Shown in pieces: positions 13,650 to 18,530 of a stretch of DNA of 46,481 nucleotides. The translations under genes were made by a program, and so were the position numbers. The stretch covers positions 1 to 46,481 of the forward strand of contig JALONO010000025.1 of the NCBI GenBank assembly GCA_025454895.1. Direction: 5' to 3'. The notes under the pieces were generated by a model. The model was given only the letters and a program-made list of their open reading frames with translations, was not told the origin of the DNA and did no database searches. This DNA is from Bernardetiaceae bacterium. Its GTDB lineage: Bacteria; Bacteroidota; Bacteroidia; Cytophagales; Thermoflexibacteraceae. Position 1 is the stretch's first letter. Every line of letters starts with the position of its first letter.

Positions 13650-14525
13650 TTACTTAACCACGATGGCCAAGTAGCGGTTACGCCAGAACGAAGCGGGATT
13701 TTTGATCTTCAGCACAGTGGTGCTGCCGTTTTCCACCAGTTCGTAGCTGCTAGCGTCGCGGGGCTCAACCAGTTCCACCCGCTTGGCCTTATAGTCGCCA
13801 ATCTCGATTTCGGTCATGTTGCGCAGGTCGCCTTTGGTGAATTGACTCTCGTCAGATCCATTAAGGTCTTTGTTCTTTTTAAACAAGCCTTTGCTACTGA
13901 TGATCCCGCGACCTTCCAATTCCTTACGCTTACCGATGGCGTAGAACACCGAGTTCAAAGTGTTTTCGGTTTCCACGCGCTTGGTGGTTTCCACTTCCTT
14001 CTCGGCGGTGGTGGTGGCCAGGTTTTGTTTCACTTGGTCCAGCTCGCCTTGCAGGGCGGCAATGGTGGACTGCAGGTCAACGATTTGGCGCTCTTTATCC
14101 TCGATTTGTTTCTTAAGTTCGTCGACCATTTGGGTCAAAGCGGCATTTTTGTTGCCAGAAGCCTTTAACTTGGCTTGCAGGTTGGCGATTTTTTGTTGGT
14201 TCTCGGCATTGAAGCGTTCCATTTCTTTGAACGCATTGTCAATGTTCAAACCGCCTTCGCCACTAAACTTGCCGCCTTGCATTTGGCTGGCCGCCTGGCG
14301 GATGCGCTCCTCGCGGGCCCGCATCGAGTCCAGGTTAGCATACAGTTCCTGCATGTCGGAATTCATTTGGACCAAGTAGGCACTATCTTTTTGGATTTTG
14401 GCCTTCAGGTCGGTATTTTCTTGCTGTAGCTTCTCGTATCCTTCGCCGCTATTCATATCGCAAGCAGAAAAAGCGAACATCGCCGACATAACTGCTACGG
14501 AGAGACTAACACGGATGGTGTTCAT
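13650..14525 (-). CDS. Coiled-coil lipoprotein of unknown function
   Basis: A 291-residue protein. The N-terminus is a lipoprotein signal with the lipobox FSAC (lipidated C22). Residues ~30-190 are strongly heptad-like, rich in K, E, Q and L with almost no Gly or Pro (for example LQQENTDLKAKIQKDSAYL and MVDELKKQIEDKERQIVDLQ), with one Gly-rich break near residue 83-92. The C-terminal ~100 residues look globular: an FYAIGKRKELEGRGII segment, then IEIGDYKAKRVELV, and an end in FWRNRYLAIVVK. It is probably an envelope-anchored elongated protein. It resembles coiled-coil lipoproteins common in Cytophagales, sometimes labelled adhesins, but I cannot assign a function. It lies immediately downstream of the Hsp70-like/pseudokinase gene on the same strand, 128 bases away. 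Confidence 0.82.
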   Translation of the reverse strand: MNTIRVSLSVAVMSAMFAFSACDMNSGEGYEKLQQENTDLKAKIQKDSAYLVQMNSDMQELYANLDSMRAREERIRQAASQMQGGKFSGEGGLNIDNAFKEMERFNAENQQKIANLQAKLKASGNKNAALTQMVDELKKQIEDKERQIVDLQSTIAALQGELDQVKQNLATTTAEKEVETTKRVETENTLNSVFYAIGKRKELEGRGIISSKGLFKKNKDLNGSDESQFTKGDLRNMTEIEIGDYKAKRVELVEPRDASSYELVENGSTTVLKIKNPASFWRNRYLAIVVK

Positions 14526-14653: not shown

Positions 14654-17302
14654 TTATTGTAGCTCCAAGGTTGGTATTTGCTTGGATTTGAGGACAAAAC
14701 GGTTGTCGGATTGTGCGGTTACTGAAAACTCGCGTAAGTTTTCGTCGGCAAGGATTAGGGTGTTGGCTGCTAAGTCTAATTTGCCACCTTGCCTAAATTT
14801 GCGAGTAGGTAGCCCTCCGGCTCCTTTGTTGTGCACTACTAAATTATAAACGAACTCGTTAGTGGATATATTTACCTGCTGAACATCAACGGTGATTTCC
14901 ACTTCTTGGCCTTCCGGGTTGGTGTATTTGCCCACGTACCGGTTGTTGGCCAATCTGCCAAAATCAACGTCGGTTTCAGCGGGCGTATTGTCCTGGGAGG
15001 GGGTTTCCTTTTTTTCTTGGGCGGGTTTTTCATCTTTTTTAACTCGATCCACGGTCGGGCCGTCGGATTTGACGAGCGACATCAGCCGGTCGCGGAATAG
15101 GTAGGCGGCCAGGGCCAGGCCCACCACCAGCACTACCGCCAAAGCGGCGGCCAGTACTTTGCCCAAGGGGAACGCGGCGGGGGCCGGAGTAGGCTTAGCG
15201 GTACCTGCCGCAAACCGTTTCTCGATGTCGGCCAGCATTTCGCCCGCGGTTTTGTAGGGGCTAGCCGAGCTGCCGTCGGAGGTTTTCTTGATCACCTCGG
15301 CCCAACGCTTGTCTTTCACCTGCCCAATGGCTTGGGGCGCGGTTTTGCCCGTGAGCATCTCGAGCAACAGGCTGCCCGTTTCTTTTAAATTGACCCGGAC
15401 TTTGTTCTGGATGCCCGTTTTGTTGTCGTTACTGCGCACATATTCAAGGCCAGAGGCTACTAGGGTTGGGCTTTGGCCATCTGGCCGGACTACGATGTTT
15501 TCTGGCTTGAGGGTTTTGTACCAAAACTCCCGCTGGTGCAGGTAGTCTAAGGCTTGGAGGATGGGCACGATCCATTTTTTAGCCTCAGCCTCGGTAGCCA
15601 GCGGCAACAACGTCTTGAGTTTTTTGCCTTCTACATATTCTGCCAGATAATAGGGCAAAGGGGCATCAGGCACGCCTTTGTAAATTTTAGCGATGTTAGG
15701 GTGGCTGATGTATGAGATGCGTTTGATCTCCTGGCTGAACGACTCATTGACCGCCCCGTCCTTCGCTAATTCTTCTTTCAAGATTTTTCGGATGGCTTTG
15801 GGGTACTCGGGTAAGCTCACCTCTTGCAGGTAGGTGGCAGGCTCGGTCCCCAGTAACTGCCGGACGGTGGCCGTATCTTGGTAAGTGGGTGGGTGGGCCG
15901 GGGGAGGCTCCACTTTTACGGTTTGGCCCACTTGGGGTGGCGGCGGCAGTGGAGGCTCGGTTACGGGCGGTAGGTTTTCTACCAGGTGGGCAAACAGGTC
16001 AGGTGCCGGGGGGGGCGGTTCCGCAAAGGTTGGTTCCTCCATTGGGGGCACTGGTTCCACCTGAGCCACGGCTTCTGCCACTGGCGGGGCCAATATTTCA
16101 GCAGGTTCCATCATTGGCGGGGCCGATACTTCGATCGGCTCGGCCACGGGCGGGGCAAAAAATTGCACCGGCTCGGCGGGGGGCGGTGTTAGCACCGGCT
16201 CGGCCACGGGGGCGGGAGGCGGGCTTACCCTCAGCAACTGGCGGTTCTGCCAAGCTGGTTGGGCTTGGGCCAGCAAATTGAGCATCAGTTGGCGCACGGC
16301 GGCTTCTTCGTTGGTGATGGCCACCACCCGGTCCCGGCCGAACTGCTGGCCCAGTAGGCCCACCAGCACTTCGTTGGCCAACTTTTGGCCGGTAACCAAC
16401 ACCTTGCTGGGCGGTTGGTTAGGGGCCACCTGGGCCAGGTTGTCGCGCACGCGGGCCAGCACGCTGGTGGCATCGAACAACAGGCTGTTGTACTCGTCGG
16501 ACCGGACCACGGCGTTCCCGGTTTCCCCGTCCGAAAATTTGACGTAAATATTGAGCAATCCCTCTTTTTGCAAGGTAGCCAGCCAACCGTCGGCCTGGTT
16601 CAAGTGGTTACGATACTCGTTTTTGGCGGCAAATTCGTCGCGGAGCAGGCTGCTAAACGAGTTGCGGAGGGCTTTATCCACCACTAGTTTGGCCAAGGCC
16701 ACCTTGGTGGCCAGGTAATTGAAATCAAGTAACTTGTCGGTATCCAACGTTTGCCCAAAATTGACCGCGACCTGTAAATAAGTCCCGCCAATGGCATCTA
16801 CCAAAGCCGTAGCGCCCGGCTGGTTGGCCAGCAGGGCGGCGGCGGCGCCTTGGGCCTGCACAACATCGAAACCACCACTTTCTAAAAAAGCCACCAGTTG
16901 TTCTTTGGCTTTGTCGGTGGCATCGTCGGGTAGGCAAAGGGCTATGGGGATGCGCCCGTTGGTATTTTCCAAAGCCAGGGTTTGCCGGTATTGGGCCTTT
17001 ACTTCTTGCAACACATCTACCAAAATATCCTCAACCCCGTAATGTGAGCCATCTAAATTGATGAGTTTGCCCACGCTCATGGCATCAAAAATGTGCCCCA
17101 CGTAATTGGGGTCCTCGGCAGCTTGCTCGTAGCTAGCCTCGTCGATGTTCAAAACCTGGCTACCGTTGGGGGTTTGTTCAATTTTGAAATAGAGCGGAAC
17201 CAGCCGGAGTTGCCCAGGTTTGAGCCAGGCCAGCTCATTTTGTTGGCGTAACCCGGCCGCCAGGTACTTTTCGGTAAAAACCAACGCAAGAAGTTCAGAC
17301 AT
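14654..17302 (-). CDS. Degenerate Hsp70-like / pseudokinase / transmembrane fusion protein
   Basis: An 882-residue protein with four parts. (1) Residues 1-~345 resemble an actin/Hsp70 ATPase fold: IPIALCLPDDATDKAKEQLV, then an AAAALL helix, DAIGGTYLQVAV in the place of the Hsp70 phosphate-2 loop, and KVLVTGQKLANEV in the place of the adenosine loop; the phosphate-1 D-G-T motif is absent. (2) Residues ~365-485 are a proline-rich linker with repeated P-P-V-A-E-P units. (3) Residues ~490-690 follow protein-kinase order (IKRISYISHPNIAKIY, YYLAEYVEGK, LDYLHQ), but the catalytic loop reads YKTLKPEN (Y595-N602, HRD changed to YKT), DFG is ASG (616-618), and the VAIK lysine is R505, so it should be a pseudokinase. 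(4) One membrane helix at about 710-730 and a ~125-residue exported domain. Function unknown; probably a scaffold or sensor at the inner membrane. Confidence 0.85.
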   Translation of the reverse strand: MSELLALVFTEKYLAAGLRQQNELAWLKPGQLRLVPLYFKIEQTPNGSQVLNIDEASYEQAAEDPNYVGHIFDAMSVGKLINLDGSHYGVEDILVDVLQEVKAQYRQTLALENTNGRIPIALCLPDDATDKAKEQLVAFLESGGFDVVQAQGAAAALLANQPGATALVDAIGGTYLQVAVNFGQTLDTDKLLDFNYLATKVALAKLVVDKALRNSFSSLLRDEFAAKNEYRNHLNQADGWLATLQKEGLLNIYVKFSDGETGNAVVRSDEYNSLLFDATSVLARVRDNLAQVAPNQPPSKVLVTGQKLANEVLVGLLGQQFGRDRVVAITNEEAAVRQLMLNLLAQAQPAWQNRQLLRVSPPPAPVAEPVLTPPPAEPVQFFAPPVAEPIEVSAPPMMEPAEILAPPVAEAVAQVEPVPPMEEPTFAEPPPPAPDLFAHLVENLPPVTEPPLPPPPQVGQTVKVEPPPAHPPTYQDTATVRQLLGTEPATYLQEVSLPEYPKAIRKILKEELAKDGAVNESFSQEIKRISYISHPNIAKIYKGVPDAPLPYYLAEYVEGKKLKTLLPLATEAEAKKWIVPILQALDYLHQREFWYKTLKPENIVVRPDGQSPTLVASGLEYVRSNDNKTGIQNKVRVNLKETGSLLLEMLTGKTAPQAIGQVKDKRWAEVIKKTSDGSSASPYKTAGEMLADIEKRFAAGTAKPTPAPAAFPLGKVLAAALAVVLVVGLALAAYLFRDRLMSLVKSDGPTVDRVKKDEKPAQEKKETPSQDNTPAETDVDFGRLANNRYVGKYTNPEGQEVEITVDVQQVNISTNEFVYNLVVHNKGAGGLPTRKFRQGGKLDLAANTLILADENLREFSVTAQSDNRFVLKSKQIPTLELQ

Positions 17303-17474: not shown

Positions 17475-18530
17475 TTACACCACTTTGAGGGCCTTGTTGT
17501 AGTCCAGGATGAAGTAACGCACCGCGGTTTTAATGGCGTTTTTGACCGAGAAGTCGCGAGCCACCACTTTTTTCACCACATCGGCGGGGTTATAGCCGTG
17601 GTTGGGGTCGCGTAAGGCCGAGAAGCTACCCACAGGCGTGGGGGTAATGGTGTCCCGGTCGGCCGTGAACAACGACTGCAGGTAGTCGGCCCGGCTTTCC
17701 TGCCAGGTGTAGCCCACATTGCGCGACAGGAAAATATCGACATCGATCTGGTTATTAGGCAGCACCGTGTATTTGAGCGACGAGTTGTACACCAGGTTGG
17801 ACATGTTGTTTTTCACCGCCTTGATCACCAGCCGGGCCGTGTCGGAGTTGGGTTGGCGTTCCACGGCGTAGTTATAATACACATTGCGCCGGTAAAACCC
17901 GTCGTTGAACACGTTCTCGCTGTCTAAGGTAAGTTGCATGTGGGCTTCCATGCCCTCGGGCAGCAGCCACGGGTGCTGGGTGCGCAGCAGGTTGGGCAGG
18001 GCATCAATGTCGGTTTTGTAGGCTTTGCCGTACACGTCCCAAATCACTTTCTTCTTTAACGCGGCGATCAGTTGGCTCTTTTGGGCGGCCGGGAGGTTTG
18101 CCTTCACCAGGGCATCGAAATCGGGCTTGCCGGCGGCCAGGCTGGTGTAGCCTTTGGCGGCCACATTGGTAGCGGTTTGGGTCACGGCCGGGGCGGTGGT
18201 GCGGTTAGTCGTCCCGATTTTTTGCAATTCGCGCACGGCCAGGTTAGGGGTTAAGGGCACGGGCGGCAAGGTGGCCACGGCGTTAGTGGGCACTTTGGGC
18301 ACAAAATCCCCATCCTCGGTGTCGCGGGCCAAGGTGCGCAATACCCTGAACAGGTAGTCGTCCACCATCCCGGTTACGGGCAAAAAGTAAGACGATTGGA
18401 AATCGCGCACGGCTTTTTCGTCCTCCGGGCCAAACTTTTGGTCCAACACCAGTTGGTAGCCGAGGGTAATCAGGTACTGCTGCACGCGGGTTACGTCTTT
18501 GCCCGCCGAACCTACTTTAATCGTTTCCAT
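17475..18530 (-). CDS. Peptidoglycan-binding-domain protein without signal peptide
   Basis: A 351-residue protein. Residues ~7-65 are a PG_binding_1 module (GSAGKDVTRVQQYLITLGY, then FGPEDEKAVRDFQ and PVTGMVDDYLF). A Pro/Thr-rich linker at ~80-130 is followed by a ~215-residue domain I do not recognise, with aromatic segments (RRNVYYNYAVERQPNSDTAR, VDIFLSRNVGYTWQESRADY). No signal peptide, lipobox or membrane helix is present, which is odd for a cell-wall binder: it may stay in the cytoplasm, be exported by another route, or use the module for another ligand. It is 172 bases upstream of the pseudokinase fusion on the same strand and may share its operon. Confidence 0.75.
   Translation of the reverse strand: METIKVGSAGKDVTRVQQYLITLGYQLVLDQKFGPEDEKAVRDFQSSYFLPVTGMVDDYLFRVLRTLARDTEDGDFVPKVPTNAVATLPPVPLTPNLAVRELQKIGTTNRTTAPAVTQTATNVAAKGYTSLAAGKPDFDALVKANLPAAQKSQLIAALKKKVIWDVYGKAYKTDIDALPNLLRTQHPWLLPEGMEAHMQLTLDSENVFNDGFYRRNVYYNYAVERQPNSDTARLVIKAVKNNMSNLVYNSSLKYTVLPNNQIDVDIFLSRNVGYTWQESRADYLQSLFTADRDTITPTPVGSFSALRDPNHGYNPADVVKKVVARDFSVKNAIKTAVRYFILDYNKALKVV

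Follow-up and report, generated by a model that had tools for sequence, protein, structure and literature searches.

The 882-residue open reading frame at positions 14654-17302(-) of the window, that is, of the whole analysed stretch of 46,481 nucleotides from a Cytophagales bacterium, is a conserved and genuine gene, and its product is a conserved transmembrane pseudokinase of narrow distribution that also carries a degenerate Hsp70-like domain. The gene begins with ATG and fills 14654..17302 on the (-) strand. The open reading frame, Pfam, homologues and AlphaFold2 models together give the order of its parts: an Hsp70-like nucleotide-binding domain (NBD), a Pro-rich linker, a pseudokinase, a membrane helix and a beta-domain. 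Because both folds have lost residues needed for catalysis, the product is most likely a docking platform or sensor and not an enzyme, and we lean, with moderate confidence, towards a non-catalytic scaffold or sensor for signalling at the inner membrane that arose by fusion of an Hsp70-like protein with an associated kinase. An earlier note on this DNA had delimited the same gene, with a P-P-V-A-E-P linker and a membrane helix, and had proposed a scaffold or sensor; the gene, the linker and the helix were all located, and the proposed role remains the most probable one.

The nature of the N-terminal part became apparent from structure comparison. The AlphaFold2 model of residues 1-356 (16235..17302, (-)), for which 18 aligned homologues were supplied, reached a pLDDT of 90.3 and a pTM of 0.86, and the best 50 matches found by Foldseek in the PDB were all Hsp70/DnaK proteins, with E values down to 9.8e-17, TM scores of 0.63-0.71 and 12-17% identity. 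Pfam and PDB sequence profiles gave no credible match to this part, the HSP70 profile (PF00012) matched none of 8 members tried, and the alignment to Cytophagales DnaK with hhalign, for which a narrow DnaK profile was used, stayed below significance (Prob 0.3). Therefore, the Hsp70 assignment, and with it the earlier placement in the actin/Hsp70 superfamily, rests on the AlphaFold2 model and the top 50 Foldseek matches. The phosphate-1 loop is replaced by a beta-hairpin at residues 5-20 (LALVFTEKYLAAGLRQ; 17243..17290, (-)), and in the motif table DLGTT is missing from all 17 homologues covering the region. The motif table also places the phosphate-2 region at residues 166-176 (ALVDAIGGTYL; 16775..16807, (-)). 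Across the family its acid is mostly retained (Q in one member) and its glycines are mostly gone, whereas the window copy still reads D-A-I-G-G-T, so that the absence of D-G-T stated in the earlier note is true for phosphate-1 only. A remnant of the adenosine motif with an invariant G305 was recognised in the motif table and the alignment at residues 299-309 (16376..16408, (-)). The NBD is not followed by an Hsp70 peptide-binding domain, the Pro-rich linker and the pseudokinase standing there instead. The missing phosphate-1 loop and the loss of most phosphate-2 glycines suggest that ATPase activity has been lost throughout the Hsp70-like family, including the form encoded by a separate gene.

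The pseudokinase occupies residues 481-701 (15200..15862, (-)) and belongs to the kinase superfamily, as had been supposed, by both sequence and structure. On the full protein, Pfam reports a kinase domain (PF00069) from residue 506 onward at 55.1 bits, against a cut-off of 31.7 (E 9.7e-15), and leaves the first 350 residues without a match; PknB was the best Foldseek match to the AlphaFold2 model of this domain (3.2e-12), and its position in a kinase tree, described below, is consistent with the assignment. The PknB/PASTA equivalog NF033483 scored 61.4 bits, below its cut-off of 450, and the listed matches to anti-phage defence kinase profiles (PD-T4-6 and similar) are confined to generic kinase sequence, at about residues 502-629. 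In the homologue alignment and the motif table, YKT stands for HRD at residues 595-597 (15512..15520, (-)) and ASG for DFG at residues 616-618 (15449..15457, (-)), both as read previously. The activation segment after ASG is about 25 residues shorter than in active relatives and its APE is gone, a deletion that the earlier reading had not included. None of the 4 pseudokinase homologues has the HRD-Asp, the DFG-Asp or the APE portion of the activation segment, and the copy in genome G003 is degraded further, with WYHAKLNDQH as its catalytic loop and SSK for DFG. The Gly-rich loop is not recognisable. The supposed replacement of the VAIK lysine by Arg was a register error: HMMER aligns K506 (15785..15787, (-)) with Pfam profile position 30, which is taken here to be the model's VAIK lysine, and the aligned homologues read V-V-R-K, V-A-R-K and V-L-M-K at this position, against V-V-V-K in active relatives. 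All 4 pseudokinases have both K506 and E525, the glutamate of alpha-C, and LKPEN with N602 is retained in three of the four, the catalytic-loop Asn being lost in G003. Since the Lys-Glu pair is kept, binding of ATP without the usual metal site is possible, judging from these residues. The proposal that both folds are catalytically dead is thus well supported for the kinase part; for the Hsp70-like part it rests on the phosphate-1 loop missing family-wide and is suggestive.

The two domains are joined by the Pro-rich linker at residues 357-480 (15863..16234, (-)), defined by sequence and homologue comparison; the three closest homologues carry a helical module of about 50 residues at this position. 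A match in the window's own genome (G000:C369) was confined to the Pro-rich part and was judged to be due to chance. Hydropathy and a helix in the model place a single membrane helix at residues 713-735 (15098..15166, (-)), and beyond it lies a small C-terminal beta-domain at residues 781-882 (14657..14962, (-)), predicted to be periplasmic and modelled by AlphaFold2 with block pLDDT values of mostly 93-97. This domain is also present in kinase-less relatives (hhalign P 3.6e-4). The protein is probably oriented with its N-terminus inside and its C-terminus outside, because no signal peptide was recognised, because of the nature of the N-terminal folds and because six relatives from family f2 have positive charge on the N-terminal side of the helix; the window's own flanking charges do not favour this orientation. 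Of the exported domain proposed earlier, the beta-domain itself is therefore confidently modelled, and its external location is a prediction on which the flanks in the window are undecided.

A first scan of the genome contigs with the single window protein as query returned zero relatives. The statements on distribution made here apply to an order-wide sample of 291 genomes and a phylum-wide sample of 395. In the former the Hsp70-like N-domain was found in 20 genomes, and in the latter only in the window's own genome, together with one weak partial match; within the taxonomic family its presence is patchy. The full domain plan is present in three further genomes of the same family, namely G006 (Thermoflexibacter ruber DSM 9560) and the Cytophagales MAGs G009, whose copy is truncated by the contig end, and G003. 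Two other forms exist. Proteins of family f2 combine the Hsp70-like domain with helical modules, the membrane helix and the C-terminal domain but have no kinase, and family f4 encodes the Hsp70-like domain separately, as a protein of about 485 residues.

Several observations link the pseudokinase to this last form. A kinase tree was built from 32 rows, retrieved mainly by searching with the window protein. In it the four pseudokinases make one clade (100/99) on a long stem branch (1.45), and their sister group (95/95) consists of f4 kinases in which HRD and DFG are intact. The active sister type (at least 63% identity) was found in only 5/291 genomes of the order (G034, G049, G076, G088 and G101). 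Each of these five also has the Hsp70-like protein as a gene of its own, a form that was found in one further genome, G114, which is 72% complete. A single open reading frame separates the Hsp70-like gene from the kinase gene that follows it on the same strand in G034 and G049, and in the g55 genomes the two genes lie apart. The genomes linking the kinase with the Hsp70-like gene span two genera, and so represent few independent events. Moreover, in G006, G009 and G003 the pseudokinase is preceded by a helical module that matches the one ahead of the active kinase (P 2.8e-5). The simplest account is the fusion of an already associated pair: an Hsp70-like protein and its existing Ser/Thr kinase partner would have been united in one chain, and kinase catalysis would have been lost after fusion. 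As the active kinases are the closest in the tree, are restricted to genomes that also have the Hsp70-like protein as its own gene and, in two of these, are encoded close to it, the protein looks like such a fused pair that lost catalysis and was then kept by purifying selection. More tentatively, these proteins may constitute an undescribed Cytophagales membrane signalling family whose core would be a degenerate Hsp70 NBD in partnership with a Ser/Thr kinase. One lineage would keep the two as distinct genes, the kinase being active, and another would have fused them and turned the kinase into a pseudokinase, the two dead folds together making up the receiver of an envelope sensor. The active kinase beside a separate Hsp70-like gene and the fused pseudokinase form a before-and-after pair in two lineages, and so offer a way to ask whether the docking role of an active kinase passes to the pseudokinase descended from it.

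In the scaffold or sensor proposed here, the Hsp70-like NBD and the pseudokinase would offer two docking surfaces in the cytoplasm, both anchored by the membrane helix, and the external beta-domain would bind an envelope ligand or partner; its state might then be relayed inward and alter binding by the cytoplasmic part. The computations support the folds, the motif losses, the architecture, the common descent and the conservation under constraint, whereas loss of activity in vitro, topology, docking, the direction of the signal and the ligand are inferred. Against this reading stand the neighbouring genes, which point to no partner, the distance between kinase and Hsp70-like genes in the g55 genomes, the charge pattern around the window's own helix and the existence of kinase-less relatives. 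The retention of K506, E525 and N602 also counts against a non-catalytic role, since it leaves nucleotide binding possible, and it is a reason to consider a pseudokinase that still binds ATP or performs other chemistry through its Lys-Glu pair under regulation by the Hsp70-like domain. By analogy, AMPylation as in SelO or glutamylation as in SidJ would be the candidate reactions, and both proteins are precedents for such a change. However, the DFG-Asp has become Ala or Ser, the Gly-rich loop is unrecognisable and G003 has lost the catalytic-loop Asn, so a metal site common to the family is lacking, and we regard such retained ATP binding or chemistry as unlikely.

A somewhat less probable alternative is that the protein is a platform on which an envelope or export machine is assembled at the membrane, in the manner of GspL with its degenerate actin-like domain, helix and periplasmic domain; the pseudokinase would then be an added docking part. 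The order of a cytoplasmic ASKHA-type fold, a helix and a small periplasmic domain is common to kinase-bearing and kinase-less members, and the existence of the latter indicates that the kinase is dispensable for the core architecture. The comparison with GspL is a general one, to which the searches added a very weak PDB match of the C-terminal domain (E 0.96, non-significant), and genes of such a machine were not recognised beside any copy examined. It could also be argued that the gene is an inactive remnant of a once-active Hsp70/kinase pair drifting towards loss, as the long stem branch, the patchy presence within the family and the degradation, furthest advanced in G003, might indicate. 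This is very improbable, given that the frames are intact in 4/4 fusion copies and that between G006 and G009, the pair on which constraint was measured in place of the window copy, the pseudokinase is the best conserved domain. With 72% identity, saturated synonymous sites and a pN/pS of 0.20, the pseudokinase of these two genomes is no relic.

The scaffold or sensor reading is best modelled, by analogy, on EssB/YukC or MviN. EssB/YukC of the T7SSb is a transmembrane pseudokinase with a short activation segment that serves as a non-catalytic hub (PMC12599244, PMC9600267). Like it, the protein described here has a cytoplasmic pseudokinase whose motifs are degraded and whose activation loop is short, together with a single membrane helix and an external domain, insofar as the predicted topology holds. 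It differs in its Hsp70-like domain, of which EssB as described has none (PMC12599244, PMC9600267), and in keeping K506, the VAIK position of EssB being occupied by Arg (LDMR, PMC12599244 Table 1); moreover, type VII secretion genes were not recognised among the neighbouring genes examined. In Mycobacterium, the MviN/ActPs3 pseudokinases are membrane proteins with an activation-loop deletion that recruit a partner upon phosphorylation, and MviN also carries a carbohydrate-binding domain (PMC12599244). The activation-loop deletion in a membrane pseudokinase is found here as well, whereas the VAIK lysine retained here is lost in MviN (VALT). The MviN pseudokinase is fused to a lipid flippase, and here the fusion is with an Hsp70-like NBD instead. 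Degenerate actin-like domains of the ASKHA fold also serve as structural parts at the inner membrane in proteins of the GspL/PilM type; the fold matches obtained here are to Hsp70 NBDs, and a pseudokinase is added.

A Ser/Thr kinase and an Hsp70 domain also occur in a single bacterial protein in Pirellula (gi|32474490), where the HSP70 part is C-terminal (PMC1262709); compared with that fusion as described, the Hsp70 part here is N-terminal and degenerate and is accompanied by a membrane helix and a beta-domain. The G034/G049 locus, which in G034 also has two Pfam-confirmed PP2C phosphatase genes upstream of the kinase/Hsp70-like pair, is reminiscent of GAP1-N2 GTPase-centred loci, which contain an Hsp70 without peptide-binding domain and, separately, kinase, PP2C and vWA genes (PMC7159879). 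However, a GTPase gene was not recognised here, the Hsp70-like family is a different one, and Hsp70 and kinase/PP2C/vWA are two themes in those loci. A literature search that took in few subscription papers found no description of a protein that unites a degenerate Hsp70 NBD with a pseudokinase, membrane helix and C-terminal beta-domain. The impression of an unfamiliar kind of system thus stands for the full combination and not for its elements, given the transmembrane pseudokinase scaffolds and the Pirellula fusion. Bacterial pseudokinases are experimentally largely unexplored (PMC12599244), and the protein also adds an Hsp70-like family that Pfam profiles miss and only structure comparison reveals.

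Gene neighbourhoods differ between the window and the relatives examined, and a partner gene was not found in them. Directly downstream, on the same strand, 13650-14525(-) encodes a coiled-coil protein matching the NCBIfam Cbp1-family collagen-binding adhesin NF052320 (158 bits, cut-off 90). Upstream, 17475-18530(-) encodes a peptidoglycan-binding protein whose C-terminal region of about 200 residues recurs in several longer proteins of the same genome and of relatives; it was rejected as a partner, having many paralogues and homologues, none beside the Hsp70-like family elsewhere. The G009 copy is directly followed by a gene for a 136-residue membrane protein (L033:10102-10512(-)), conserved in 9/12 genomes searched in varying surroundings. 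In three g55 genomes its distance from the Hsp70-like gene is about 3-9 kb, in G006, G003, G013, G034 and G049 it lies elsewhere, and it was dropped as a partner because its location varies and it was not found in the window's genome. Other kinase genes were also noted. In f4 genomes a second kinase gene adjoins the first (L039:4023-6194(-), L149:7662-9794(-), L150:7786-9018(-)); the product in L039 has a Pfam kinase domain and a sub-threshold N-terminal biotin/lipoyl-like match, and the N-termini of those in L149 and L150 look alike. In the window's own genome, Ser/Thr kinase genes that clearly match Pkinase form a cluster (G000:C129, L096).
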